This document shows positions 1,501 to 16,408 of a stretch of 45,080 nucleotides of DNA, in pieces. This DNA comes from Bacilli bacterium. GTDB lineage: Bacteria; Bacillota_I; Bacilli_A; RFN20; CAG-826. The position numbers were made by a program, and so were the translations under genes. The stretch is from contig JAKSVI010000009.1 of the NCBI GenBank assembly GCA_024408095.1, positions 1-45,080 of the forward strand. Reading direction: 5' to 3'. Within the stretch, counting starts at the first letter, position 1; every line of letters begins with the position of its first letter. The notes under the pieces were generated by a model, which made no database searches, had not been told where the DNA came from, and saw nothing but the letters and a program-made list of their open reading frames with translations.

Positions 1501-2886
1501 ATGATTATTAAGTGTGATTTATTGATTAAAAATGGTAAAGTTGTTTTACCTAATAAGATAGAAAACGTAGATATTGCAGTCAAAGATGAAAAGATAATTT
1601 TGATTGGTCTAAATTTAAATGTGGAAGCCAATGAAATAGTGGATGCTAGCGGAAAAATAGTTGTTCCTGGAGCAATTGATGCACATACTCATTTAGCTAT
1701 GTCATATAAAACCACCTTTTCAGCAGATGATTATTTCACTGGCACAAGAGCCGCACTTTGTGGTGGAACTACATCAATAATCGATTATCCTTGTCAAACT
1801 AAGGGCGTATCTATTAAAGAAACATTAAAACCACGTTTTGAAATGTGCCAAAAAGATGCCTGTGCTGATTATTCCTTCCATTGCGCCATAACAGATTTTA
1901 ACGATGGAGAAATTCTAAACGAAATGGATGAAGCTTGTGAAAATGGAATTACTTCATATAAGGGATATATGGTATATAAAAAAGAGGGAATGATGTTATC
2001 AGACCAGATGATCTCTACTCTTTTAAAAAGAACTAAAGAAGTTGGAGCTATTTTAAATTTACATGCAGAAAATTATGAGATGTTAGAAGAACGTTGCCAA
2101 AAATATTTAAAAGAAGGCAAAACAAGCCCATGGTATCACTATATGTCTCGACCAGAATCTGTTGCAGCTGAAGCTGATAAAAGGGCAATACGTTTAGCAA
2201 CAAATTTAAAGGCCCCTTTATATCTAGTTCATATGTCAGATAAAGAAGGACTTGAAGCAGCAATTCAAGCAAAACAGGCGGGATTTGATATAAAAATTGA
2301 AACTTGTCCACATTATTTAGAATTTACAAATGAAGTTTATAAAAGGGTTGATGGCATAAATTTTGTTTGCTCTCCACCCATGAAAAATAAAGAATCTCAA
2401 GATGCATTATGGAAAGCCTTAAATGATGGATATATAGACACTATCGCAACAGATCATTGTCCATTTAAAAAAGAAGAAAAATTGTGGGGAAAAGATGACT
2501 TTACAAAGACACCTAATGGCTGTGCAGGGATAGAAAATATGTATCCTTATATGTTAAGTAAAGCAAATGAAGGGAAGACAACTTTTGAAACCGTTGTGAA
2601 AGTTTGTTCATATAATCCAGCTAAGATATTTGGTTGCAAAAATAAAGGAAGTATAGAAATAGGAAAAGATGCCGATATTGTTATCTTTGATCCTAATAAA
2701 GATTTTGTTATATCAGTTAAAAATATGCATTCTAATTATGATTACACCATTTGGGAAGGGCATAAATGCCATGGTTATATAGATTCAACATATCTTAGAG
2801 GTAAGTTAGTTTTCAAAGATGGAAAATTTCTTGGAAAACGTGGATCAGGTAAGTTTATAAAAAGAACAAGATATAATCGCGGTTAA
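1501..2886 (+). CDS. Dihydropyrimidinase / D-hydantoinase-type amidohydrolase
   Basis: A 461-residue cyclic amidohydrolase that opens hydantoin or dihydropyrimidine rings. Key residues are visible in order: the HTH metal pair (H62, H64), the lysine of SYKGY (K154) expected to be carbamylated, HAEN (H188), LVHMSD (H244) and ATDHCPF (D318). These are the ligands of a binuclear metal site, normally zinc. Length is normal for the family. The frame extends upstream to 1474, but ATG 1501 is chosen because it gives the normal N-terminus and follows a TATAAT box closely. It heads a block with a metal transporter, nucleoside hydrolase and sugar kinase, and an XdhC factor faces it. This suggests purine or pyrimidine breakdown. 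Allantoinase is less likely; the exact substrate cannot be told from sequence. Confidence 0.88.
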   Translation: MIIKCDLLIKNGKVVLPNKIENVDIAVKDEKIILIGLNLNVEANEIVDASGKIVVPGAIDAHTHLAMSYKTTFSADDYFTGTRAALCGGTTSIIDYPCQTKGVSIKETLKPRFEMCQKDACADYSFHCAITDFNDGEILNEMDEACENGITSYKGYMVYKKEGMMLSDQMISTLLKRTKEVGAILNLHAENYEMLEERCQKYLKEGKTSPWYHYMSRPESVAAEADKRAIRLATNLKAPLYLVHMSDKEGLEAAIQAKQAGFDIKIETCPHYLEFTNEVYKRVDGINFVCSPPMKNKESQDALWKALNDGYIDTIATDHCPFKKEEKLWGKDDFTKTPNGCAGIENMYPYMLSKANEGKTTFETVVKVCSYNPAKIFGCKNKGSIEIGKDADIVIFDPNKDFVISVKNMHSNYDYTIWEGHKCHGYIDSTYLRGKLVFKDGKFLGKRGSGKFIKRTRYNRG

Positions 2887-2910
2887 TCAAAAGCCATCCA
2901 ATTATTATTG

Positions 2911-2939
2911 TTATAAAATAAATTCATTTATTGTATACT
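2911..2939 (+). promoter_or_regulatory. Promoter upstream of the ZIP transporter gene
   Basis: TTATAA (2911-2916), a 17-nt spacer and TATACT (2934-2939). The ATG at 2950 is 10 nt further on, leaving a leader of only a few bases. Confidence 0.5.
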
Positions 2940-2949
2940 ATCAATTGAT

Positions 2950-3807
2950 ATGGAATATATTGGTTGGGTAATATTAGTAACAGCAGTTTCAGGAATAATT
3001 GGCACCGGTCTTGGTGGTCTAATTGGTGTTTTAGTTAATAAGAATTCTAATAAAGGCGTATCATTATTACTTAGCTTTGCTGGCGGTATTATGTTAGCCA
3101 TTGTTGTGTTTGATTTATTTCAAGAATCAATTATCCCGTTTATCAAAGATAAGCAAAATAACTGGTATTATGTTGTTGTAGTATTGGGATGTGCCTTTGT
3201 TGGTTACATTCTTGTTTATTTAATTAATAATTTAATTGATAAACGTCTTTCTAAAGAAGTGCCACACACATCATCTGGTCACCCTGATTTGCATGATGAT
3301 CTTAACGAAATGATCCATTTGGATCACATTGAAGTTCATAAAAAAAATCACAATAGCTTATTTGTTGCAGGTTTAATTACTGCGATAGTTATAGCATTAC
3401 ATAATTTACCTGAGGGTATTGCTATTGGAGCTAGCTATGCTACGAATCCTAGTGCGATTATTGTTAGTAGTGGCTTTGCTTTAGCCGTCGTGATTGGCTT
3501 ACATAACGTTCCAGAGGGAATGGCTGTTGCCGTTCCTCTTGTTGTTGGTGGAACAAAAAAATGGAAGGCTGTTTTAATTACTGCATCTACTGGTATTCCA
3601 ACAGTTATTGGTGCAGTTATTGGATTTGCTATCGGAAATATCGGTCCAATTGGATTATCTATAAGTCTTGCTTTAGCAAGCGGAGCCATGCTTTATGTAG
3701 TGTTTGGTGAACTATTACCTGAGTCATATTTAATGTGGAAATCTAAGCTCCCTGCTCTTGTTACTTTTGTGGGATTGTTAATTGGTTTTCTCATTGTGCT
3801 AATATGA
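2950..3807 (+). CDS. ZIP-family divalent metal transporter
   Basis: A 285-residue membrane protein with about eight hydrophobic segments, resembling ZupT/ZIP importers of zinc, iron or manganese. Two signature motifs are intact: HNLPEGIAIG (H151, E155) and HNVPEGMAVA (H185, E189), which form the metal site between segments 4 and 5. A hydrophilic loop at about 98-135 carries roughly nine histidines and several acidic residues, typical of the ZIP metal-sensing loop. It follows the hydantoinase by 63 nt with its own promoter-like sequence, and overlaps the next gene by ATGA. I infer it may feed zinc to the neighbouring amidohydrolase, but this is only context. Confidence 0.88.
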   Translation: MEYIGWVILVTAVSGIIGTGLGGLIGVLVNKNSNKGVSLLLSFAGGIMLAIVVFDLFQESIIPFIKDKQNNWYYVVVVLGCAFVGYILVYLINNLIDKRLSKEVPHTSSGHPDLHDDLNEMIHLDHIEVHKKNHNSLFVAGLITAIVIALHNLPEGIAIGASYATNPSAIIVSSGFALAVVIGLHNVPEGMAVAVPLVVGGTKKWKAVLITASTGIPTVIGAVIGFAIGNIGPIGLSISLALASGAMLYVVFGELLPESYLMWKSKLPALVTFVGLLIGFLIVLI

Positions 3808-4583
3808 GAATTATTTTAAAAAACAATGCAGAAATCGATTATTTACACTTTGGAAGTGGTAAAAAGCTTTTTGTTATATTACCTGGTATATGCTTATTAT
3901 CAGTAGTAAATAATGACGAAATAATACAACAAATATTTGATGATTTTTGTAAAGACTATCAAGTTTATTTATTTACATATAACAATAATTTTCTTAATAG
4001 TTATTCTATTGAACAAATGGCGAATGATATAGCTGAGGCCATGAGACAACTAAACATTGAAAACGCTTATATTTTTGGAGCTTCTCAAGGTGGAATGATT
4101 GCCCAGATTTTAGCAATTCAACACAAAGACCTTGTTAAAAAAGTTGTCCTTACTTCGACATTGTCAAAACAAAACGTTGTTTCAGCTGAAGTTTTTAATG
4201 AATGGAAACGATTGTCAGATTTAGGTGATGCAATAAAATTAAATCAATATGCGTTTTCTAAAATATATTCGAAGGATTATTTAATTAGATATAAAGATGC
4301 TTTCAATGCTCTTGAAAAAATGGGAACAAAAGACCAACTAATTAATTTTGGTAAAAATGCAGTAGCTTGTAGAAATTTTAATTGTTTTGATCAATTAAAC
4401 AAAATTACATGTCCAGTATTTGTTATTGGATCTAGAAAAGATTCAGTAACTAGTATTGAAGGTACACTAGAATTAATTGAAGCATTGAAATGTAAATATT
4501 ATATATATGACGACTATTCACATGCTGTATTTGATGAAGATATTAATTTTCATAAGCATTTGCATCAATTTTTTAAGGAATAA
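3804..4583 (+). CDS. Alpha/beta hydrolase
   Basis: A 259-residue soluble alpha/beta-fold hydrolase. The nucleophile elbow is GASQGG (S94), the acid is probably D213 in GSRKDS, and the base is H240 in YSHAVF. The early VILPGI stretch supplies the oxyanion region. The start overlaps the ZIP gene by 4 bp (ATGA), so translation is probably coupled. Substrate is unknown; esterase, lipase-like and C-C hydrolase activities are all possible. Its place in a hydantoin/nucleoside block does not settle this. Confidence 0.8.
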   Translation: MRIILKNNAEIDYLHFGSGKKLFVILPGICLLSVVNNDEIIQQIFDDFCKDYQVYLFTYNNNFLNSYSIEQMANDIAEAMRQLNIENAYIFGASQGGMIAQILAIQHKDLVKKVVLTSTLSKQNVVSAEVFNEWKRLSDLGDAIKLNQYAFSKIYSKDYLIRYKDAFNALEKMGTKDQLINFGKNAVACRNFNCFDQLNKITCPVFVIGSRKDSVTSIEGTLELIEALKCKYYIYDDYSHAVFDEDINFHKHLHQFFKE

Positions 4584-4586
4584 AAT

Positions 4587-5516
4587 ATGGAAAAGCGTAA
4601 GTTAATTTTAGATGTTGATCCAGGACATGATGATGCTTTTGCTATCATGTTAGCAGGTAGCACTGAAGACATAGAACTATTAGGTATTACTGTTGTTTCT
4701 GGAAATCAAACAATAGATAAGACGTTTAGAAACGCATTCAACGTTTCAAGATATTTAGGATTAGATGTTCCAATATATATGGGCTCGGATAAACCATTAG
4801 TAAAGCCTCAACAGGCATGCGCTGAAATACATGGGGAGACAGGTTTAGATGGGTTTAATTTTCCCCAATACAATATTACTGTACCAGATGTTGATGCTGC
4901 TAGTTTCATTGTTAGTTCCCTACATAAATATAAAGATGTGACAATTGTGACCTGCGGCCCAATGACAAATCTTGCACTGGCCATTAAAAAAGATCCAACG
5001 ATTGTGAAGAATATTAAGGAAGTTATTTTTATGGGTGGAAGCATTGGTTTAGGCAATATTACGCCTGCTGCTGAATTCAATATTTTATGTGATCCTGAGG
5101 CTGCAGACATTGTTATAAACAGTGGCGTTTGTCTCAAAATGATTGGACTTGATATTACACGAAAAGTGCTGGTTTTGCAGGGAATTATTGAGAAAATGCG
5201 TGGAATTCACAACAGAGCAAGTGATATGTTTGTCTCATTAATGGAGTTTTTCAATAAATCTAATCAAGCATTGTTTGGTATACCTGCTGGACCATTGCAT
5301 GATCCTGTAACTATAGCCTCAATTATTGATGAAAATTTAGTCACTTTTAAAAAGATGAATGTTACAGTCGATTGCACGCGTGGTCCTAGTGATGGTAGAA
5401 CTAATTGTGACATATTAGATGTCCTTCATTTACAAAAAAACGTTTATGTTGGAATAGATATTAATGTTGAGAAATTCTGGAATATTGTTGAACAAGGGTT
5501 AAAGCATTATGAATAA
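4587..5516 (+). CDS. Nucleoside hydrolase (inosine-uridine preferring type)
   Basis: A 309-residue enzyme that splits the N-glycosidic bond of nucleosides into free base and ribose. The calcium-binding signature DVDPGHDDA is at 9-17 (D9, D11, D15, D16). Further family marks are IFMGGS, AEFNILCDPEAA and the late HDPV (H238, D239). Length matches RihA/IunH proteins. It starts 3 nt after the hydrolase gene with an AAGGA ribosome site and overlaps the following kinase by 8 bp. The pair makes a direct route from nucleoside to ribose 5-phosphate. Base preference cannot be predicted. Confidence 0.92.
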   Translation: MEKRKLILDVDPGHDDAFAIMLAGSTEDIELLGITVVSGNQTIDKTFRNAFNVSRYLGLDVPIYMGSDKPLVKPQQACAEIHGETGLDGFNFPQYNITVPDVDAASFIVSSLHKYKDVTIVTCGPMTNLALAIKKDPTIVKNIKEVIFMGGSIGLGNITPAAEFNILCDPEAADIVINSGVCLKMIGLDITRKVLVLQGIIEKMRGIHNRASDMFVSLMEFFNKSNQALFGIPAGPLHDPVTIASIIDENLVTFKKMNVTVDCTRGPSDGRTNCDILDVLHLQKNVYVGIDINVEKFWNIVEQGLKHYE

Positions 5517-6390
5517 AATTATTGTTGTTGGTTCTATTAATATTGATAACGTTGTTTATACCAAGAAAGTTCCGGTTCCAGGAACGACAGAGATGGGCGA
5601 ATCATTCATGAGTAACATTGGAGGGAAGGGAGCTAATCAAGCTTGCGCCATTCATTTTTTAGAAACCCCTGTTATGTTTGTAGGAGCAATTGGGAATGAT
5701 CCAAATGGAGAAAAAGTTAAAAAATATTTTGATTCAATAAATCTCAATAATCATTTATTTGTTAAAACTGCTCCGACAGGTTCAGCACATATATGGTGTG
5801 AAACAGTAAAAGGGGAAAATCAAATCATTACTATTCCTGGAGCAAATGAAGCGTTAACTATAAGCGACATGAAAGAATTTGAAAATTTAATTGAAGCAAA
5901 CGATATTTTGCTACTCCAATTAGAGATTCCTATTGATTGCGTTTTACATCTAATAAAGTGTGCAAAAAATATAGGAGCAAAGGTTGTTTTAAATCCAGCC
6001 CCATATCATTTTATTGATAATGAGTATTTGAAATACATTGATTATTTTATTCCTAACGAACATGAATTAGATGGCTTTATTCCCGGTAAAGAATCTTATG
6101 AATATAAGGCGAAAACTCTACTAAAACTCGGTGTCCAAAACGTTATTGTTACGTTAGGTGAAAAAGGATCACTTTTTGTGAATAATCAAGAAACAATAAA
6201 TGTGCCTCCAAATAAAGTTAATGTAGTTGACACAACGTGTGCTGGAGATAGTTACTGCGGAGCGTTTTCTTCATACTTGTTAAAGGGAAAATCCATTAAA
6301 GAATGTTTAAAGTTTGCTTCATTAGTAAGTTCGAAAACTGTAACAAAAAAAGGTGCAATTTCTTCATTGCCACACATTCAAGATTTATAA
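5509..6390 (+). CDS. rbsK: PfkB-family sugar kinase, probable ribokinase
   Basis: A 293-residue PfkB-fold kinase, likely converting ribose to ribose 5-phosphate. The N-terminal signature GGKGANQA (38-45) and the anion-hole/catalytic motif DTTCAGD (241-247, base D247) are present. The usual Gly in DTxGAGD is Cys here, a mild deviation. It overlaps the nucleoside hydrolase by 8 bp, and AAGGG before ATG 5509 gives a ribosome site. The coupling strongly suggests it takes the ribose that enzyme releases. Adenosine or other nucleoside kinase activity is a weaker alternative. Its stop abuts the stop of the convergent XdhC gene with no spacer. Confidence 0.85.
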   Translation: MNKIIVVGSINIDNVVYTKKVPVPGTTEMGESFMSNIGGKGANQACAIHFLETPVMFVGAIGNDPNGEKVKKYFDSINLNNHLFVKTAPTGSAHIWCETVKGENQIITIPGANEALTISDMKEFENLIEANDILLLQLEIPIDCVLHLIKCAKNIGAKVVLNPAPYHFIDNEYLKYIDYFIPNEHELDGFIPGKESYEYKAKTLLKLGVQNVIVTLGEKGSLFVNNQETINVPPNKVNVVDTTCAGDSYCGAFSSYLLKGKSIKECLKFASLVSSKTVTKKGAISSLPHIQDL

Positions 6391-7242
6391 TTATTCAAAA
6401 TATTTTTCGTTATCAGGAACTGTGTTTCTTAAGTGGGAATTAAGATGTTCTTTTTTATAATAAACAGATAGCATTTCACCTGCTATAGAAATAGCAATTT
6501 CTTCAGGAGAATTGCCACCAATATCTAATCCAATCGGTGAATAAAAATTTTGCAAATTGAGATCATTTCCATAAATTTCATTGGCTTTTTGCATATATTC
6601 TCCAATTTTTTTCTTTGAACAAAGCATTCCAAAATATGATGGATTATAGCCAATCTCTAATACTTTATTCAGTACATGATAATCATTTGTGTGACTAGGT
6701 GTACAAACTACTAAATAGGCATTTGGTTTCAAACCATATTTTTCTATATATTCAACAAAGCCAACATTAACTTTTTCATCACACGAATCATCTAATGAAT
6801 TGATGACAGATTCTCTTTCCTCAATAATTGTTATATGAAATCCTAATGGTTTTAGTGTTTTTGCAAGAGCAGCGCCACAATGTCCAGCCCCAAAAATATA
6901 TACATGTTGTTTAGGACCTACAAACTCATAGAACAGTGTAACCTTGCCACCACAAACCATATCTAAAGGAATTTCATCTCCTTCAGGATAAACATCTCGC
7001 CCATATAACATATATTTTTCGGTAAATGATTTTCTTTCTTTTATTACTTGTTTACATTTTTCTCTAGCATAAAATTCAATAGCGCCGCCGCCAACAGTGC
7101 CAATCGCGTTATTGTCTTCATCAACAAGCATTTTTTTGCCAACATCGGCAGGCCCCATACCTTCTTTTTCGGTTACAGTTACCAGAACTACATCTTTTCC
7201 TTGCTTAGATAATTTGTTTAGTGTTTCAAAAATATTGTTCAT
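6391..7242 (-). CDS. XdhC/CoxI-family molybdoenzyme maturation factor
   Basis: A 283-residue protein of the XdhC type, which binds molybdenum cofactor, helps sulfurate it and inserts it into xanthine dehydrogenase-like enzymes. The N-terminal XdhC domain shows GPADVGKKMLV and GTVGGGAIEFYA. The C-terminal half is a Rossmann domain starting VYIFGAGHCGAALAKTL. No molybdenum hydroxylase subunits or cofactor-biosynthesis genes are in this window, so the partner must lie elsewhere. Its position next to purine/hydantoin genes agrees with the xdhC-hydantoinase clusters known from other anaerobes. A TAAAAT box (7249-7254, minus) lies 6 nt before the ATG, so the mRNA is probably leaderless. Confidence 0.85.
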   Translation of the reverse strand: MNNIFETLNKLSKQGKDVVLVTVTEKEGMGPADVGKKMLVDEDNNAIGTVGGGAIEFYAREKCKQVIKERKSFTEKYMLYGRDVYPEGDEIPLDMVCGGKVTLFYEFVGPKQHVYIFGAGHCGAALAKTLKPLGFHITIIEERESVINSLDDSCDEKVNVGFVEYIEKYGLKPNAYLVVCTPSHTNDYHVLNKVLEIGYNPSYFGMLCSKKKIGEYMQKANEIYGNDLNLQNFYSPIGLDIGGNSPEEIAISIAGEMLSVYYKKEHLNSHLRNTVPDNEKYFE

Positions 7243-7248
7243 AGAAAT

Positions 7249-7254
7249 ATTTTA
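7249..7254 (-). promoter_or_regulatory. -10 box of the XdhC gene, leaderless type
   Basis: TAAAAT on the minus strand with a 6-nt gap to the ATG at 7242. No clear -35 and no ribosome site. Confidence 0.45.
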
Positions 7255-7288
7255 CTTTAGAGTTAGTAAGAAAAAAACAGAAATAATC

Positions 7289-7338
7289 TTTTGTTTGTGC
7301 GCGTCTTTCAAGGTAAAAGACCGTGCGCACGAACAAAA
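7289..7338. repeat. Large GC-containing stem-loop between divergent genes
   Basis: The left arm (7289-7308) and right arm (7315-7338) pair over a TTTTGTT/AACAAAA base, a TGTGCGC/GCGCACG block and a GTCTTT/AAAGAC top, with a 3-nt bulge and a 6-nt loop. It lies between the start of the XdhC gene and the promoter region of the rightward gene. No free T-run follows on either strand. It is much more stable than the surrounding DNA and stands out. It could be a bidirectional transcription barrier, a regulatory hairpin or a remnant of a small mobile repeat. Confidence 0.6.
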
Positions 7339-7346
7339 ATAAAAGT

Positions 7347-7375
7347 TTGATTTTTGTGACACAAATTGGGAAAAT
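7347..7375 (+). promoter_or_regulatory. Possible promoter with a palindromic operator in its spacer
   Basis: TTTGTG-A-CACAAA (7353-7365) is a perfect 13-bp inverted repeat. It sits inside the 17-nt spacer between a -35-like TTGATT (7347-7352) and a -10-like GAAAAT (7370-7375). This is where a repressor would bind. The half-site resembles those of Crp/Fnr- or Rex-type regulators, but no regulator can be named. Confidence 0.35.
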
Positions 7376-7395
7376 AAATGTTGAGGATTTAACAT

Positions 7396-9184: not shown

Positions 9185-11218
9185 ATGGGAAAAACAATTA
9201 AACATCTTAAACTCGCTTGCTTTATTATCATCTTAACTGAACTGATTTTCTTATCAGTCTTTTGTGGTTTTTATTTAACAAATTTTACAAATATTCAAGC
9301 TTATGTTGAGCCAATATATCTATTAATCGGAGCAATTGGACTTATCTTAATTAATATAATTTTTGTTTGGATAATGTTTATTAAGGTCTCCTCTTTAAGA
9401 CAAAAAACAGATTTGCATGCTGCCGAGGTTATCGGAAGTGATGTTCAAGAAGCTTATAACTTTGCGATGATTGGTCTTGCCGTTACCAATGATGATGGTG
9501 TTGTTATTTGGACTAATGATCTATTTAAAGATCGTCACATCGATATTATCGATTTAAAAATATTGGAATGGCAACCTTCATTAGAAGAACTTATACAAGC
9601 TGGTAATAGTGAAACAATTTCTAAAATTGTTATTAATTCAAGAAATTATGAAGTTAAGTTTTTAGCGGAAGCTGGCCTTTGGATTTTTAAAGATACTTCT
9701 GACTATGAATCTCTATATAAATATAGTAGAGAGCAAGCCCCTGTTGTCGGAGTTATCTCGATTGATAACTTTGCAGATGTTGTTCGTGGTGATGAAGATT
9801 ATAACGATACGATTTCTAAAGTTAAAAATGAATTATTTGATTATGCAAAACAATATGATATTTTACTAAGAAGATTTAAGGATGATAGTTATTCCTTGCT
9901 CTGCAATTATGAGAGTTTCAGCAAAATGAAAAATGATAATTTTTCTATTGTTGATAAAGTTCGTGCTGTTTCTGTTCATGAAGACATTCCTTTAACTCTT
10001 TCAATTGGTATTGCACATGATTTTCCTGATGTTGTTAAACTAAATGAGCTTGCAAATGCGGCATTAGATGTTGCTATGTCACGTGGTGGTGACCAGGTTG
10101 TTGTTTCCGCATATGGAAAAGATATGGAATTTATCGGTGGAAAAACAGAAGCTCAGGAAAAACGTAATAGAGTTAAGATTCGTGTTTTAGCAGATTCTTT
10201 AATCTCGTTAATTAAGAACTCTTCAAATGTATTAATTATGGGCCACACTGATATGGACATGGATGCTTTTGGTGCATGTTTAGGCATTAAAGCTATATGT
10301 GATTACGCACAAATTAAATCAAATGTTGTTGTTAATATAAAAGCAACTGAAGGCAAAACTAGAGCAGCAATGAATTCATGCTTTTCAAAAGAAGAGCACG
10401 ATAAATTATTTGTAAGTGAGAAAGAAACAGAAAGTTTAATAGAACCAAATACATTATTAGTCGTTGTAGATGTTCACATTCCTAGCATGGTTATGGCACC
10501 TTCTTTACTTGAGAAAATAGGCAAGGTAGTCGTCATTGACCACCACAGAAGAGCTGAAGAATATATTGAATCTCCTGTGTTTAACCATATCGATCCTGCA
10601 GCAAGTTCATCCTGTGAACTTATTGCTGAATTTATAAAATTCGCTTCTGTGAATCCGCGCATTTATTTGCCTAACTCATTTGCTACTATTATGCTTTCTG
10701 GAATATTCCTTGATAGTGGATATTTCAAAAGTAGGAATACAGGTATGAGAACATTTGAAGCATCTACCATATTAAAAGAATATGGTGCTGATAATGCTTT
10801 GGCAGATGATTTATTAAAAGATGATTATGAAGAATATAAAGAAGTTAACGATATAGTTAGGAACCTAAAAACTCCTCAATATGGTGTTGTTTATGCAATT
10901 GCAAACCCTGACATCATTTACGATCAGTCAACTATTGCAAAAGCGTCGAATATATGTCTCGCAATGAAAGGTGTTCACGCTGCATTTGTTTTAGGAAAAA
11001 TATCAAACAGAGAAATAAGAATGTCAGCTCGTAGTGATGGATTAGTTAATGTTCAATTACTTGCGGAGAAATTAGGTGGCGGCGGCCATTTTAGTTCAGC
11101 TGCTTGTGTCTTTGAAAAGAGTGATTTAGCAGCTGTTGAAGAGATGTTATGTTCAGTATTAGAAAAATATTATGCCGATGCAAAGAGCGATGCAAAATTA
11201 GGTTTAAGGGAGGAATAA
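9185..11218 (+). CDS. gdpP: Cyclic-di-AMP phosphodiesterase GdpP
   Basis: A 677-residue membrane-anchored enzyme that hydrolyses c-di-AMP and so affects osmotic and cell-wall balance. Two membrane segments (about 9-33 and 40-67) are followed by a PAS region (about 85-150), a degenerate GGDEF domain (about 180-315, without a GGDEF motif) and a C-terminal DHH-DHHA1 unit. Catalytic marks are GHTDMDMDAFG (H354, D358, D360), VVDVH, VVIDHH (D452-H454) and GGGGH (631-635). Length matches the usual 650-680. It leads the classic gdpP-rplI-dnaB order, with rplI 3 nt downstream. Confidence 0.96.
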   Translation: MGKTIKHLKLACFIIILTELIFLSVFCGFYLTNFTNIQAYVEPIYLLIGAIGLILINIIFVWIMFIKVSSLRQKTDLHAAEVIGSDVQEAYNFAMIGLAVTNDDGVVIWTNDLFKDRHIDIIDLKILEWQPSLEELIQAGNSETISKIVINSRNYEVKFLAEAGLWIFKDTSDYESLYKYSREQAPVVGVISIDNFADVVRGDEDYNDTISKVKNELFDYAKQYDILLRRFKDDSYSLLCNYESFSKMKNDNFSIVDKVRAVSVHEDIPLTLSIGIAHDFPDVVKLNELANAALDVAMSRGGDQVVVSAYGKDMEFIGGKTEAQEKRNRVKIRVLADSLISLIKNSSNVLIMGHTDMDMDAFGACLGIKAICDYAQIKSNVVVNIKATEGKTRAAMNSCFSKEEHDKLFVSEKETESLIEPNTLLVVVDVHIPSMVMAPSLLEKIGKVVVIDHHRRAEEYIESPVFNHIDPAASSSCELIAEFIKFASVNPRIYLPNSFATIMLSGIFLDSGYFKSRNTGMRTFEASTILKEYGADNALADDLLKDDYEEYKEVNDIVRNLKTPQYGVVYAIANPDIIYDQSTIAKASNICLAMKGVHAAFVLGKISNREIRMSARSDGLVNVQLLAEKLGGGGHFSSAACVFEKSDLAAVEEMLCSVLEKYYADAKSDAKLGLREE

Positions 11219-11221
11219 GCA

Positions 11222-11674
11222 ATGGAAGTTATTTTATTATCTGATGTCAAAGGTGTTGGTAAAAAGAACCAAACAGTTAAGGTTAGTGATGGGTATGCAA
11301 ACAACTTTTTATTACCAAGAAAACTTGCTGTTCCTTCAAGCAAAAAATCTCAAGAAATTTTAGAAAATCAAAAAGAAAATGCGAGAATTGCTGATGAAAA
11401 CGCAAGAAAAGAAGCAACTTTATTAGCAAAAAAACTTGAGACAATTACTTGCGAATTTTCATTAAAAGGTGGAAATGCAGGTAGAACTTTTGGAAGCATT
11501 TCTTTAAAACAAATCGAAGATCAATTAGAGACAAAATTTGGAATTACAGTCGATAAAAGAAAATTTTTAGATAAAGGACCATTAGACTCTTTTGGATTCT
11601 ATAAGTTAAAGATTGATTTATACAAAGGTGTTATCGGCGAAATTAATGTTCACATAGTAGAGGAGGGAAAATAA
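11222..11674 (+). CDS. rplI: Large-subunit ribosomal protein bL9
   Basis: A 150-residue ribosomal protein of normal length. The N-terminal rRNA-binding domain begins MEVILLSDVKGVGKKNQTV and includes the typical YANNFLLPRKLAVP stretch. A long charged connecting helix (about 42-75) and the C-terminal domain follow. A strong GGGAGGA ribosome site lies before ATG 11222, within the end of gdpP. Confidence 0.97.
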   Translation: MEVILLSDVKGVGKKNQTVKVSDGYANNFLLPRKLAVPSSKKSQEILENQKENARIADENARKEATLLAKKLETITCEFSLKGGNAGRTFGSISLKQIEDQLETKFGITVDKRKFLDKGPLDSFGFYKLKIDLYKGVIGEINVHIVEEGK

Positions 11675-11675
11675 T

Positions 11676-13172
11676 ATGGCGAAAAAAGTTGCAAACGATT
11701 TACCACATAATTCTGATGCTGAAAGAGCTGTATTAGGATCAGCCTTACTTGATAAAGATTCCCTACTAGATGTTTTAACTTCTCTAAATGAAAGTGATTT
11801 TTATGAAGGTAGACATCAACTAATTTTCCGTGCCATTAGTTCAATTAACGCAAAACAAAAAGCTGTTGATGTTTTAACAGTTAGTGAAGAACTTATGAAT
11901 ATGAAAGAATTAGAAAATATTGGCGGAGTTAGTTATCTCCAACAATGTTCTGATTCAATGGTTGCTTTAAGTGCTTTGAAATTTTATATCGACATTGTCT
12001 ATGATCAGGCTGTTTTACGTAATATGCTTATTACAATTCGTGGTATTGATGAAAAATATAGAACCGCTGAAATTACAGATGTAAACGACTTTATTTTAAC
12101 TTCTGAAACAGCTTTTAAAGATGCTGTGGAGAAAAGAAAGGTATCTACATTTGAAACAATGGATAACGTCGCAGCAAAAGTAAAAGCAAAGTTAGATAAT
12201 ATTCAAGTTTCTGAAAATGGTGTTACTGGAATAAACACTGGATTTCCTAGATTGAATGAACTCACTCATGGTTTCCAAAAAGGCGAAATGATTATTGTTG
12301 CTGCTCGTCCATCTGTTGGCAAAACTGCTTTCGCTTTAAATATTGCTCACAAAGTTGCAACTAGGGGAGGGAAAGCTGTCGCTATTTTCTCAATTGAAAT
12401 GACAAACGATACTTTGTTTAAACGTTTATTAGCATCATCTAGTTGCGTTTCTTTAAATAACATTATTACTGGAAAGTTAAATCAAAAAGAACGTATTGAT
12501 ATGTCTGATGCATTTAGAGAATTAAGTCAGGCTCCAATTTATCTTGATGAAACATCAGGTATTAAAATTTCTGATATTGTTAACAAATCAAGAAAATTAC
12601 AGGTTCACGAACCAAACCTAGGTTTAATTATTATTGATTATCTTGGACTTGTGCAAACTTCTTCTGGTGGCAAATCAAATCCAGATTCCAGACAAGAAGA
12701 AGTGAGAAAAATTTCTTTGACTTTAAAGGGTTTGGCAAAGGAATTGAACATACCTATTATTGTTGTTAGCCAACTTTCACGTGATTGTGAAAAACGTGGT
12801 GAAAATAAACGCCCGATGTTGAGTGATCTTAGAGACAGTGGATCTATCGAACAAGATGCTGATGTTGTTATGCTTTTATATCGTGCTGATTATTATAAAG
12901 ATTCCGCTTCTGATTCATCTATTGGACATAAAAAAGGTGGAAATTTGACCAACGAAGATAAATATGAATTAGCGAAAAGAAAGAAAGAACAAGAACTCGG
13001 TAATTCAATTCCTGGCAACGCTTCATATATAGAAATAAATGTTGCAAAAAATAGAAATGGTTCAACTGGAAAATTCCCATTATTCTTCTACAAGGATTAT
13101 CAAAGATTTGATACTCCATCTAAAGAGTGGGAAGACGCTATGAGAGAAATAACAAAAGACGATATAGATTAA
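11676..13172 (+). CDS. dnaB: Replicative DNA helicase DnaB (DnaC of Bacillus)
   Basis: A 498-residue hexameric helicase that unwinds the replication fork. The N-terminal domain starts LPHNSDAERAVLGSALLD. The RecA-like domain has Walker A ARPSVGKTAFALN (near 209-221), Walker B LIIIDYLGL, and SQLSRDCEKR with RPMLSDLRDSGSIEQDAD. The usual short link between DYY (405-407) and IEINVAKNRNG is enlarged to about 44 residues of charged, low-complexity sequence (about 408-451), which explains the length above the common 440-460. The ribosome site GAGGAGGG lies at the end of rplI and the gap to it is 1 nt. Confidence 0.96.
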   Translation: MAKKVANDLPHNSDAERAVLGSALLDKDSLLDVLTSLNESDFYEGRHQLIFRAISSINAKQKAVDVLTVSEELMNMKELENIGGVSYLQQCSDSMVALSALKFYIDIVYDQAVLRNMLITIRGIDEKYRTAEITDVNDFILTSETAFKDAVEKRKVSTFETMDNVAAKVKAKLDNIQVSENGVTGINTGFPRLNELTHGFQKGEMIIVAARPSVGKTAFALNIAHKVATRGGKAVAIFSIEMTNDTLFKRLLASSSCVSLNNIITGKLNQKERIDMSDAFRELSQAPIYLDETSGIKISDIVNKSRKLQVHEPNLGLIIIDYLGLVQTSSGGKSNPDSRQEEVRKISLTLKGLAKELNIPIIVVSQLSRDCEKRGENKRPMLSDLRDSGSIEQDADVVMLLYRADYYKDSASDSSIGHKKGGNLTNEDKYELAKRKKEQELGNSIPGNASYIEINVAKNRNGSTGKFPLFFYKDYQRFDTPSKEWEDAMREITKDDID

Positions 13173-13173
13173 A

Positions 13174-13926
13174 ATGTTTTTTAACGTAATAGCCAGTGGC
13201 TCAAAAGGTAATGCCACAGTAATTGTCGAAAATAATACAAGAATCCTCATTGATTTGGGGATTTCTTTATGTCGACTAGAAGAAGGTTTAAAAGAAATAA
13301 ATTTGTGTACTAAAGATATTGATGCAGCATTTTTTACGCATAACCATTCTGATCACATAAAAGGTATTAAATTCTTATCTCCTAAAAAAATGTATGGTCT
13401 ACAGGGCACGTTGCCTTCAAGTTTGTCAAACATCATTAATTTAGATAAAGAAATTAAGATTAAAGATCTGACAATAATCCCTTTCAATACAAGTCATGAT
13501 GCCATTAATCCTTGTGGATTTGTCATAAAATCTAAAAATGAAAAACTAGTGTATATGACTGATACGGGCGTTTTTCTTAAGGACTCACTTGATATATTAA
13601 AGGATCCGGATTACTTAATTATTGAAAGTAATCATGATATTAAAATGTTGATGGAAACTAATAGAACGATGGAATTAAAACAGCGTATATTATCTGATCA
13701 TGGACATTTATGTAATGAAGATAGTGCATTTGCGACGTTAGATATTATCGGGCAGAATATAAAAGAAATTGTTTTAGCACATTTATCAGAAGAAGCAAAT
13801 ACTCCAGAACGAGCTCTTAAAGCCTATAATGAAGTTTTTGCATTTAAAGGTTTTGATTTTAATAAATATAAGATACGTTGCGCTAACCAATGGGTGTCCT
13901 TATTAGGCGGTAATTATGAAAATTAA
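13174..13926 (+). CDS. walJ: Metallo-beta-lactamase-fold hydrolase WalJ (YycJ/VicX)
   Basis: A 250-residue MBL-fold protein. The metal motif is THNHSDHIKG (H56, H58, D60, H61), and SGSKGNATVI near the N-terminus plus DLGIS match the WalJ/YycJ type. In Bacillus this gene belongs to the walRKHIJ operon and is linked to coordination of cell division with replication. Here it stands directly behind dnaB, without walRK, and overlaps rlmH by 11 bp. The enzymatic substrate is unknown; a 5'-3' exonuclease role has been proposed for the family. Confidence 0.88.
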   Translation: MFFNVIASGSKGNATVIVENNTRILIDLGISLCRLEEGLKEINLCTKDIDAAFFTHNHSDHIKGIKFLSPKKMYGLQGTLPSSLSNIINLDKEIKIKDLTIIPFNTSHDAINPCGFVIKSKNEKLVYMTDTGVFLKDSLDILKDPDYLIIESNHDIKMLMETNRTMELKQRILSDHGHLCNEDSAFATLDIIGQNIKEIVLAHLSEEANTPERALKAYNEVFAFKGFDFNKYKIRCANQWVSLLGGNYEN

Positions 13927-14395
13927 AATAATTGCAGTAGGCAAGATAAAAGAAAAATATTTGAAGGACGGAATAGCTGAATATGTTAAGAGAATTCAGC
14001 CTTATTCTGATGTGGAAATCTTTGAATTAAATGATTATTCAATTTATGATTCAAACAGCATTTTTGAAATTGAAAAAGCTAAAACTGAAGAAGGTAAATC
14101 CATTCTTAAAAATATCAAAAATACGGAATATGTGATTACCTTAGATTTAAACAAAAATGAGCCAAATAGTCTGCAATTCGCAACTATTTTAGACAAATCT
14201 TTCCAAAAAGGAGGCTCAAAAATTACCTTTGTTATTGGTGGAAGTTATGGTTTATCTGAAGAAGTTAGAACCAGAGCAAATGATTCTATTAGTTTATCGA
14301 AACTTACATTCTTGCATCAAATGACAAGACTAATTTTGCTTGAACAAATTTATCGCTCATTTAAAATTTTAAACAACGAGGTCTATCATAAATGA
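13916..14395 (+). CDS. rlmH: 23S rRNA (pseudouridine-1915 N3) methyltransferase
   Basis: A 159-residue SPOUT-class methyltransferase modifying helix 69 of 23S rRNA. Typical stretches are ITLDLNKNEPNS, FVIGGSYGLSEEV (the SAM-binding knot) and the C-terminal LHQMTRLILLEQIYRSFKI ending in VYHK. Length is the normal 155-160. It overlaps walJ by 11 bp and the next gene by 4 bp (ATGA), so all are one operon. Confidence 0.96.
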   Translation: MKIKIIAVGKIKEKYLKDGIAEYVKRIQPYSDVEIFELNDYSIYDSNSIFEIEKAKTEEGKSILKNIKNTEYVITLDLNKNEPNSLQFATILDKSFQKGGSKITFVIGGSYGLSEEVRTRANDSISLSKLTFLHQMTRLILLEQIYRSFKILNNEVYHK

Positions 14396-14730
14396 ATTAT
14401 CCTGAATTTAATAAATATAAAGAAGAATTCGATAATAAAAATCCATATTCAAAAAAATATATTTTGGATGATGGAAGTATGTTTTATGTAGAACCAGCTT
14501 TTTATACTCAACTAATCGGGTTTAAAACATATCGTCCAGAATCGTTTGAAAAAATTTTAAACGAAATTGAAAGATTGGTTAGAAAAAATAAGAAAGTTGT
14601 ATTTGTTGGAAACTTTGAATTTCCTCAAACGGAAGTTGATCAATTTATTTTTCTAGAAATAACCGATGTTACTGATCCATTAAAAATATTTGTCGAGGAT
14701 AAGTCTCGCGGTTCCGATTATGGTGATTAA
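14392..14730 (+). CDS. Hypothetical 112-residue protein
   Basis: A small soluble, charged protein with no recognised family and no membrane segment. The sequence has an acidic N-terminal half, a central basic helix (ERLVRKNKKVVFVGNFEF) and an acidic tail. It overlaps rlmH by ATGA and is followed at once by a terminator, so it is the last gene of the gdpP-to-rlmH operon. Codon use matches its neighbours and the reading frame is clean, which makes it a real gene despite the missing function. Confidence 0.7.
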   Translation: MNYPEFNKYKEEFDNKNPYSKKYILDDGSMFYVEPAFYTQLIGFKTYRPESFEKILNEIERLVRKNKKVVFVGNFEFPQTEVDQFIFLEITDVTDPLKIFVEDKSRGSDYGD

Positions 14731-14734
14731 AAAA

Positions 14735-14756
14735 ACACTCGATTGAGTGTTTTATT
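14735..14756. terminator. Bidirectional terminator
   Basis: Stem ACACTC (14735-14740) / GAGTGT (14745-14750) with loop GATT. T-rich sequence follows on the plus strand, and seven A precede it, giving a T-run on the minus strand. It ends both the rlmH operon and the convergent membrane-protein gene. Confidence 0.85.
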
Positions 14757-15894
14757 GTGGTCTTAATTGTCTCATGCAGAGCCACATTATTCTGATGCCA
14801 TCGAGAATAATGAATGACATAACTGCAAATCGAGGAATGATAAAGCTTAGTATTAACGCGATAATAGCTGGAGATAATGAAGCCCACATTGAAATTTTCA
14901 TACATGTCCAGAATTTTAAATAATTAAATACGTTTTTCTTACCTCTAGTTAATATAAAGATTAATACGCCCATTAACAAAATCAAGCCTGCGTAAACACC
15001 AATATACATCCATGTATTGATAGCCATAGCTTTGTTTTTGGCCTCAATATAACTTTCATCAAACACAACCATTAAACGCACAAAAGTATTTTCGGCAAAT
15101 TGTATTTTGTCTGATGGAAAATCAGTCCAACTGTTATATGAATTCAAAAATTTAGCAGATAAAAATTCACCATCAGGATCGATTGCTTTATCTGTTAATA
15201 ATCTATGGAACATTCCATCTGGGCAGAATGTATATGTCCACGTGGAACCAGCAAAACTACTAGCGGCAACATTGGACCTGCCAATTGGTCTTATAAAATA
15301 AGAAAGGCCAGTTCTATAAAAACAGAGGATACTAGGCAAATAGTACATATTTTCTGTATCATCTTTAATTTCTTCATATGTTTTTGGAGTTTGGCCGACA
15401 AAATCAAGGTCAAGTCTATAATATTTATCATTTAATGAAGTAATAACAGTACTTGCTGCACTTGCATCTCCATCAACATAAACAGTAGTTAATTCAATAA
15501 GAGAAATCGGAGAAGCATATTCTTTTCCGGTGACTGGATTAGTTGCAAATTTACGAGTGTGATTTTTTCCAATAGTGGAGTCTAAAGAAAGAACATCATC
15601 TTTATATGCTCTAAGTTGTCCATCTAGGAATTTTAATTCATATCCATCTTTTAAAAATTGGAATGAACAGTCAGTAGTTGCACAATCTTGGTCATAATTT
15701 AAAGCAGATGCAAAGTTAGAACCATTGACTTTCGCAATTGCTGTCATTGTAGGAATTACAGGAATAAATGCAGCGATAACACCAAAAAGAACCGCTACAA
15801 ACCATGGCATTTCTTTAGCGCCATCAATAGCTTTTTGGTTGCTAATTAATCCACCAAATATATTTGAGAAGTTTCTTTTTGCTTGTGCACCCAT
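14752..15894 (-). CDS. Membrane protein with a large extracellular domain, unknown function
   Basis: A 380-residue protein. One hydrophobic segment (about 31-55) follows a short cytoplasmic N-terminus. Then comes a roughly 220-residue hydrophilic region, probably outside the cell, with a close cysteine pair (CATTDC), and three C-terminal membrane segments (about 295-315, 330-350, 355-372). The pattern of one plus three segments around an outer domain recalls DUF1189-type proteins, but I cannot confirm the family. The stop lies within the T-run of the shared terminator. The likely promoter is TTGAAA (15933-15938) with TAAAAT (15910-15915) at 17-nt spacing, giving a leader of about 8 nt. Confidence 0.7.
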   Translation of the reverse strand: MGAQAKRNFSNIFGGLISNQKAIDGAKEMPWFVAVLFGVIAAFIPVIPTMTAIAKVNGSNFASALNYDQDCATTDCSFQFLKDGYELKFLDGQLRAYKDDVLSLDSTIGKNHTRKFATNPVTGKEYASPISLIELTTVYVDGDASAASTVITSLNDKYYRLDLDFVGQTPKTYEEIKDDTENMYYLPSILCFYRTGLSYFIRPIGRSNVAASSFAGSTWTYTFCPDGMFHRLLTDKAIDPDGEFLSAKFLNSYNSWTDFPSDKIQFAENTFVRLMVVFDESYIEAKNKAMAINTWMYIGVYAGLILLMGVLIFILTRGKKNVFNYLKFWTCMKISMWASLSPAIIALILSFIIPRFAVMSFIILDGIRIMWLCMRQLRPQ

Positions 15895-16019: not shown

Positions 16020-16408
16020 GGGGTCGTATAGGATTCGACGGAGATGTGCTAGGCTCTAACAGCAGCTGGCTGACAACCATAAATGTCAAACAAAAATAAC
16101 TGATAACAGTTATATGAGAGCTCCTAGAGCTCAATCACTCTGCTTAGCTTAGTCTACCCGATATAGGGACCGACAGATTGTCGGACAGAGCGTCTCTCAA
16201 AGTTTTATTCCTTTCACGTTTGAGTAAGATGTCATAACAAAAGGATAGTTAAAAGAAGTGGACTTGTTATCTTTTAGCAAAACTAGGAAGTCTCGCAAGC
16301 ACTAGTGCGTCGATACATAAACGCTTGTTAAAAATTAATATCGTCTAAGCTGTAGACGTTATTGAAGAGTCATCTTCGGACGCGGTTTCGATACCGCCGG
16401 CTCCACCA
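16020..16408 (+). ncRNA. ssrA: Transfer-messenger RNA
   Basis: The tmRNA rescues stalled ribosomes with SmpB. The tRNA-like ends are clear: 5' GGGGTCGTATAGGATTCGAC and 3' ...GGCTCC-ACCA, with a T-arm GCGG-TTTCGATA-CCGC and an encoded CCA. Acceptor pairing GGGGTC/GGCTCC includes two G-U pairs. In the first pseudoknot region TGACA (16071-16075) pairs with TGTCA (16084-16088). A later helix pairs CTCTG (16138-16142) with CAGAG (16186-16190), and CCGACA-GAT-TGTCGG forms a hairpin. Of the three frames after the first pseudoknot only one stays open, to TAG at 16150-16152. Its end reads ...QSLCLA rather than the usual ALAA. The resume codon is uncertain; GAT 16102 is one option. Confidence 0.95.

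Follow-up and report, generated by a model that had tools for sequence, protein, structure and literature searches.

A membrane protein encoded beside XdhC is a candidate importer of molybdenum cofactor in Bacilli-related bacteria

Results

The XdhC locus

The window analyzed here is a 45,080-nucleotide stretch of DNA from a Bacilli bacterium and constitutes a whole contig (G000:C65) of a 1,110,565-base assembly with a completeness of 83.3%. It encodes an XdhC-family maturation factor for molybdenum hydroxylases (6391–7242, − strand) and next to it a 218-amino acid membrane protein that we call C12 (7396–8052, + strand), which on the basis of co-occurrence, position and fold models is a candidate S-component-like importer of molybdenum cofactor (Moco) or a precursor thereof. 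XdhC matched PF13478 with 101 bits and PF02625 with 63.2 bits, both above cut-off; its score against the equivalog TIGR02964 (131.1 bits) did not reach the cut-off of 161.6. The xdhC gene is convergent with a kinase gene on one side and divergent from C12 on the other, and the 153 bases that separate it from C12 contain an inverted repeat with an asymmetric loop. This conserved hairpin element (7289–7337, + strand; core 7303–7321) could be an RNA or a DNA site. C12 lies just outside a block of six genes (1501–7242) for which the original prediction had proposed a joint function, and it is a recurring neighbor of XdhC. At an E-value of 0.001, no Pfam or NCBIfam family matched the C12 protein of the window.

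Molybdenum hydroxylases and the uric-acid operon of relatives

XdhC had been taken to imply a molybdenum hydroxylase encoded elsewhere, and this expectation was borne out in relatives. Among 58 genomes of the family and order, XdhC was matched in eight at E 0.001 and above cut-off in five (the window's own genome, G004, G013, G014 and G029). Nine of the 58 encode molybdenum hydroxylases, two each (of the three matches in G031, two lie at contig ends), and all four of the other genomes with XdhC above cut-off are among them. The three named genomes in which XdhC relatives were found, HGW-Tenericutes-1 (locus L066, 51%), UBA5632 (L067, 51%) and Horse_feces357 (L068, 74%), likewise have two hydroxylases each.

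In these relatives the hydroxylases belong to a conserved cluster that encodes a MocA-like nucleotidyltransferase (TIGR03310 119–120 bits, under the cut-off of 186.45), flavin (FAD) and Fe-S subunits, an XdhA-like enzyme, a hydantoinase, SsnA, a DHO_dh/ferredoxin protein, a second hydroxylase, threonine-synthase-like and cysteine-synthase-like enzymes, YgeY, a carbamoyltransferase and carbamate kinase. The cluster matches the reductive uric-acid pathway that has been described for Escherichia coli and Clostridioides difficile (PMC12507026). The XdhA-like proteins retain GGGFGGK and GQGSDT in all ten sequences and KSVGE in nine, the tenth being cut by a contig end, and the hydroxylases of the second kind retain GGAFGGK, GQGxxT and KGxGE in 11 of 11. 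The proteins checked come from genomes with and without the cofactor synthesis protein MoaC, and by these motifs they look functional. In L066 the gene order is XdhA, C12, XdhC, a nucleoside triphosphatase (NTPase), hydantoinase, SsnA. The fourth of these products, an NTPase_1-like P-loop protein of 156–163 residues, accompanies C12 and XdhC in the operon (L066 10815–11285, + strand; L026 13685–14176, − strand).

Distribution of C12

The 58 genomes and the three named ones were combined into a set of 61, in which hydroxylases were found in 12 genomes, C12 in 11 and MoaC in three. Every hydroxylase-bearing genome without MoaC has C12 (10 of 10) and neither of those with MoaC does (G004 and G029); the eleventh C12 is that of the window. 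MoaA was found among the 58 genomes only in G004, G029 and G041, and it was not found in any of the seven that were searched of the ten hydroxylase genomes lacking MoaC. MoeA_N was matched only in G041. We ruled out its absence as proof of a missing Moco pathway, since the MoeA-like protein of G004 and G029 lacks this domain. That protein (342–354 residues; L081 8171–9199 in G029 and L082 9110–10174 in G004, both − strand) is encoded in Moco operons beside moaA, moaC, a MOSC-MogA fusion and modABC.

We also examined 395 genomes of the class, counting hydroxylases above the PF02738 cut-off and leaving out of the tables G410, which falls below that cut-off, and G203, whose C12 match contains six stops. 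The two samples overlap in G000, G004, G006, G014, G020 and G021, and G058 and G186 show identical coordinates. Hydroxylases were present in 72 genomes, C12 in 49 and MoaC in 24. C12 was found in 48 of the 72 hydroxylase genomes and in one of the 323 others (p 2e-42), the exception being the genome of the window. Among the 72, MoaC was absent from 42 and present in six genomes with C12, compared with 13 and 11 genomes without C12 (p 0.003). These tests treat related genomes as independent, and the p-values are therefore too small. Five assemblies of only one or two contigs (G104, G128, G156, G168 and G178) are among the C12 genomes without MoaC. The strict complementarity of C12 and MoaC that held in the 61 genomes failed in the 395.

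C12 adjoins an XdhA-type gene in 36 of the 48 genomes, 1.72–1.85 kb from the PF02738 match; one further copy is 6.1 kb away and 11 are on another contig, although those of G299 and G340 belong to pieces of the operon cut off by contig ends. Away from the operon, C12 is divergent from XdhC in the window, G013, G060, G132, G324 and G416. In the last three, XdhC is followed in the divergent direction by a lipoprotein of no known family and then by C12. The lipoprotein gene (L136 2220–2825, L137 3911–4450 and L138 4206–4745, all − strand, in G416, G132 and G324, respectively) stands between the hairpin and C12, and its product may serve C12 as an extracellular capture protein. G285 has an intact C12 beside XdhC away from the operon, and its contig with the hydroxylases keeps a piece of C12 with six stops.

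The immediate proximity of C12 to XdhA and XdhC could also mean that C12 imports molybdate, or that it is a membrane partner of XdhC or the hydroxylases in maturation or electron transfer. Either role would also explain the co-occurrence with hydroxylases. However, molybdate alone would be of no help to a genome without MoaA and MoaC, G004 and G029 lack C12 while having both XdhC and hydroxylases, and C12 is also present in genomes that gave no strong XdhC match (G003, G006, G020, G021 and G031). We therefore regard these roles as improbable.

For the window's own genome, the original prediction had named the lack of molybdoenzyme and Moco genes as the finding that would refute it, and in the 83.3% complete assembly no match was found to PF02738, PF03453, PF06463 or PF01967. 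An operon-type hydantoinase was not found either; SsnA and YgeY were not searched. C12 and XdhC of this genome might thus be idle relics of a lost hydroxylase operon. On the other hand, 17% of the genome is missing, both open reading frames are intact, the hairpin has been kept, and no other genome had C12 without a hydroxylase, save for the G203 match with its six stops. Loss of the operon is in our judgment unlikely.

A hairpin common to C12 and moa loci

A 19-base core of the hairpin precedes C12 in seven loci (window, G060, G013, G006, G021, G153 and G416), from which a covariance model was built. The model found two sites that had not been used in its construction, in G132 (67.0 bits) and G324 (71.7 bits), so that the hairpin stands before C12 in all nine off-operon loci of the lineage. 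Eight of these genomes belong to family f1 and the ninth is G060 (Horse_feces357). The core ends about 74–82 bases upstream of C12 in six loci, and in G416, G132 and G324 the lipoprotein gene intervenes. Since the hairpin is also present in G006, G021 and G153, where C12 has no adjacent XdhC match, it goes with C12.

The model also matched in G029 between moaA and the operon that contains the moeA-like gene, moaC, mogA and modABC (41 bits, with E-values of 2.6e-9 for a search of 666 kb and 3.8e-10 for 96 kb). The corresponding moaA-moeA gap of G004 gave a weak score, but its 11-base loop TTCAAGGTTAA is identical and a 7-base-pair stem flanks it. Across these 11 hairpin sites, 99.1% of 108 cells are paired, and in five cells both sides change; none of 500 shuffles reached either value. 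Searches of Rfam, including the Moco RNA motif, gave no match at gathering score over window positions 7243–7395 or in L081, L082 and L136–L138. Other weak matches to our model include reverse-strand matches of two of its own sites, and a match to the loop in the operon of G006 (L029:2161) was taken as chance.

These sites bear on a further explanation, namely that C12 is an S-component-like importer of the pathway substrate (xanthine, urate or another purine) that has nothing to do with the cofactor. C12 is found in or with the uric-acid degradation operon at most loci examined, six C12 genomes also have MoaC, and none of ten tested proteins flanking the operon is a purine permease, which leaves substrate uptake otherwise unexplained. 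Yet G004 and G029 carry the same operon without C12 and are the two hydroxylase genomes of their set that have MoaC, and the hairpin of C12 is seen again in their moaA-moeA gap, with none found in the operons examined. Purine import thus seems unlikely to be the function of C12.

Predicted fold of C12

Two C12 proteins were modeled, those of the window and of L066. For the window protein, the best structural matches by VIA were the S-components of energy-coupling factor (ECF) transporters 5edl (Z 9.2, 170 residues, 4.5 Å) and 4hzu_S (Z 7.6). For the L066 protein, all six best matches were ECF S-components (5edl, 11.2; 4huq_S, 10.9; RibU 5kbw, 10.9; RibU 3p5n, 10.3; ThiT 4muu and 3rlb, 9.8), and the best unrelated protein scored 8.1. 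In Foldseek, unrelated helical proteins came first by E-value and S-components had the best TM-scores among the best 50 rows. Helix 1 of C12 carries G19-x3-G23-x3-A27, in which both glycines are invariant and the alanine is present in at least 90% of 34 members. In S-components, whose fold has about six membrane helices, a small-residue motif (AxxxA) in helix 1 docks on EcfT. The low-confidence models are suggestive, though not proof, of an S-component.

Other genes of the window

All six genes of the block proved to be intact open reading frames. At lower coordinates than xdhC, and on the + strand, are a D-hydantoinase/dihydropyrimidinase-type amidohydrolase (1501–2886, start possibly at 1474; TIGR02033 479.8 bits, above the cut-off of 393.25), a ZIP-family metal transporter (2950–3807; PF02535 111.3 bits), an alpha/beta hydrolase (3804–4583; PF00561 68.4 bits), a nucleoside hydrolase (4587–5516; PF01156 309.7 bits and motifs) and a ribokinase-like PfkB kinase (5509–6390; PF00294 209.9 bits). 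As with XdhC, three of the names hold only at the family level: the ZIP protein scored 144.8 as ZupT (NCBIfam cut-off 252), the kinase 284.8 against TIGR02152 (cut-off 299.65), and the nucleoside hydrolase stayed below the NCBIfam cut-offs of all four nucleoside-hydrolase equivalogs. The nucleoside hydrolase retains the motifs DVDPGHDD and HD, the hydantoinase HTH and YKG, and the kinase GGKG and DTTCAGD. With these matches and an 8-base overlap of their genes, the nucleoside hydrolase and the kinase are a plausible pair for conversion of nucleosides to ribose-5-phosphate, as the original prediction had proposed.

The same cannot be said of its larger idea that the six genes form one island for nucleoside and base degradation. 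Physical proximity and the overlap of the nucleoside hydrolase and kinase genes speak for such a unit. XdhC, however, is on the opposite strand, which makes this one neighborhood and not one operon. In addition, the arrangement is not shared by Horse_feces357: in L068, divergent C12 and XdhC genes lie beside homologs of window genes 9185–15894 (presumably gdpP, rplI, dnaB and others), as they do in the window, and within 10 kb beyond XdhC, the part of that genome that was searched, there is no homolog of the hydantoinase, ZIP protein, hydrolase, nucleoside hydrolase or kinase. Nor does the hydantoinase fit its assigned part in purine breakdown. The purine operon of the relatives holds a hydantoinase of its own, eight full-length copies of which are 28.5–32.7% identical to that of the window. 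The latter has a 75% relative in G006, and a carbamoylase-family gene (TIGR01879) adjoins four of its five best relatives (those in G006, G012, G032 and G013, not that in G018); the window hydantoinase itself has no such gene next door. Given its different type and the carbamoylase genes beside its relatives, it most likely acts on hydantoins or dihydropyrimidines and has no connection with XdhC. On the strength of hydantoinase type, synteny in L068 and carbamoylase neighbors, we dropped the single island, which is very improbable. The neighborhood apparently consists of ordinary, unrelated genes and one functional pair, C12 and XdhC.

Two further features were noted in the window. Two short open reading frames near the contig edge (119–492) resemble remnants of a tyrosine recombinase on visual inspection; Pfam gave no recombinase match. 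A tmRNA gene (16020–16408, + strand) has an unusual predicted tag, DNSYMRAPRAQSLCLA, and this tag call may be off.

Discussion

C12 is nearly exclusive to genomes with molybdenum hydroxylases, the motifs of these enzymes are retained in the sequences checked, C12 is encoded behind XdhA or beside XdhC, MoaC is often absent from its genomes, and it has a hairpin in common with moa genes. The company of hydroxylases, the frequent absence of cofactor synthesis and a control element common to synthesis genes point to molybdenum cofactor, and the S-component-like fold adds a mechanism, uptake. XdhC proteins function in sulfuration and insertion of the cofactor. C12 may therefore import Moco or a precursor that XdhC would mature, a proposal for which we see the chances as about evenly balanced. 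In the envisaged sequence, C12 would take up the cofactor or precursor together with an ECF module, the MocA-like transferase of the uric-acid operon would add the nucleotide inside the cell, XdhC would sulfurate and insert the cofactor, and the two hydroxylases of the operon would use it for purine breakdown. For the window's genome, the hydroxylases would lie in the unassembled part. A more far-reaching version sees in C12 the first bacterial importer dedicated to Moco or molybdopterin, representing a new family of ECF S-components through which many Bacilli-related bacteria could be Moco auxotrophs and still run two hydroxylases to break down uric acid; a new hairpin would control import in some species and synthesis in relatives. 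This version is tentative, and we consider it somewhat more likely to be wrong than right.

A number of findings weigh against cofactor import. The proposal is least secure with respect to the fold, to the genomes that have both C12 and MoaC or neither of them, and to the presumed ECF module. The mean predicted local distance difference test scores (pLDDT) of the two models are low (57.5 for the window protein; 64.4 for L066, with a predicted template modeling score of 0.61), and VIA Z-scores below about 13 may reflect a common helical arrangement. For the window model, an unrelated protein (Z 7.2) was close behind the second S-component (7.6). Foldseek gave no match with E < 0.25 for either model, Pfam searches over 34 C12 members yielded 18 families that each matched one member (best E 0.022), none of them an S-component family, and hhalign gave no similarity between C12 and a FolT-like protein of G004 (probability 0.3%). 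A search of PDB sequences with the C12 profile returned only two chance matches, to designed proteins.

With regard to distribution, the window's assembly itself is without a hydroxylase match, and thirteen hydroxylase genomes (G077, the single-contig G083, G088, G095, G108, G129, G133, G241, G270, G320, G361, G379 and G405) have neither MoaC nor C12 and would need another source of cofactor. Restricted to the 53 genomes of the operon-bearing families f1, f16, f19 and f28, the contrast is modest, with MoaC absent from 42 and present in six genomes with C12 and absent from two and present in three without it (p 0.03). The six genomes with both proteins (G137, G174, G180, G272, G327 and G413) all belong to f19. 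Import and synthesis together are common for vitamins. In G272 and G413 (L142 and L145), the moa genes are located beside a protein that is closest to the tungstate-binding protein TupA (181.0 and 184.1 bits; cut-off 400); the ModA of G029 scored 127.1 bits (cut-off 62.5). The moa pathway of these f19 genomes may serve tungsten enzymes, a possible but not established excuse for the presence of both proteins. G292 has MoaC, no C12 and a similar-looking operon, and thus tungsten alone does not sort the genomes with both.

The hairpin has exceptions as well. It is absent from all three off-operon C12 loci of f19 and f28 (G137, G174 and G285), and nothing above 13 bits was found near C12 in these families, in the moa loci of f19 or in the uric-acid operons examined, except in L108 (13.7 bits, E 1.4). 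Taken by score alone, the G004 match (15.7 bits; E 0.34 and 0.048) falls short of significance. Ten of the sites have the hairpin in the same orientation as the gene that follows, and that of G029 is antisense to the moa genes; the hairpin could therefore be either RNA or a DNA site.

If C12 is an importer of this kind, it would explain how bacteria unable to make Moco run molybdenum enzymes, and it makes Moco import testable with one gene. Purine degraders such as the relative from horse feces would then depend on neighbors or diet for a metal cofactor; we know of no such cross-feeding link for a metal cofactor. According to the view described as prevailing in 2022, cells that need Moco must make it, with Caenorhabditis elegans as a seeming exception (PMC9793310). 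In literature on import of Moco or molybdopterin, no named bacterial importer was found among the matches listed, the nearest remark being that a role in the uptake of molybdopterin has been suggested for some type 11 secretion proteins (PMC12282271).

Comparison with known systems

ECF S-components such as 5edl, RibU, ThiT and PanT import vitamins and other micronutrients, are similar in size to C12 and are the best structural matches of both predicted models. C12 differs in having no sequence-family match and in its tie to molybdenum hydroxylases, and its proposed substrate, molybdenum cofactor, is one for which no named bacterial importer was found among the matches listed. The hairpin resembles the Moco RNA motif, a riboswitch candidate described as a structured element before Moco genes (PMC2408646), in being a conserved structured element; in contrast to that motif, it is short and matches no Rfam family at gathering score. 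With the reductive uric-acid cluster of E. coli and C. difficile as presented in PMC12507026, the operon of the relatives shares XdhA- and XdhD-like hydroxylases, SsnA, a HyuA-like hydantoinase, a UacX-like DHO_dh protein, the carbamoyltransferase, YgeY, the pyridoxal phosphate (PLP) enzymes and carbamate kinase. It differs in that it often contains C12, XdhC and the NTPase, occurs mostly in genomes without MoaC, and went undetected in the assembly of the window. Finally, a 2018 survey reported 305 bacteria (13 + 292) that have Moco-dependent enzymes and no complete Moco pathway, and left the mechanism open (PMC6147048). The C12 genomes resemble these in having Moco-dependent enzymes without cofactor synthesis, but whereas the survey proposes new biosynthetic components or molybdenum-independent forms, C12 suggests import.

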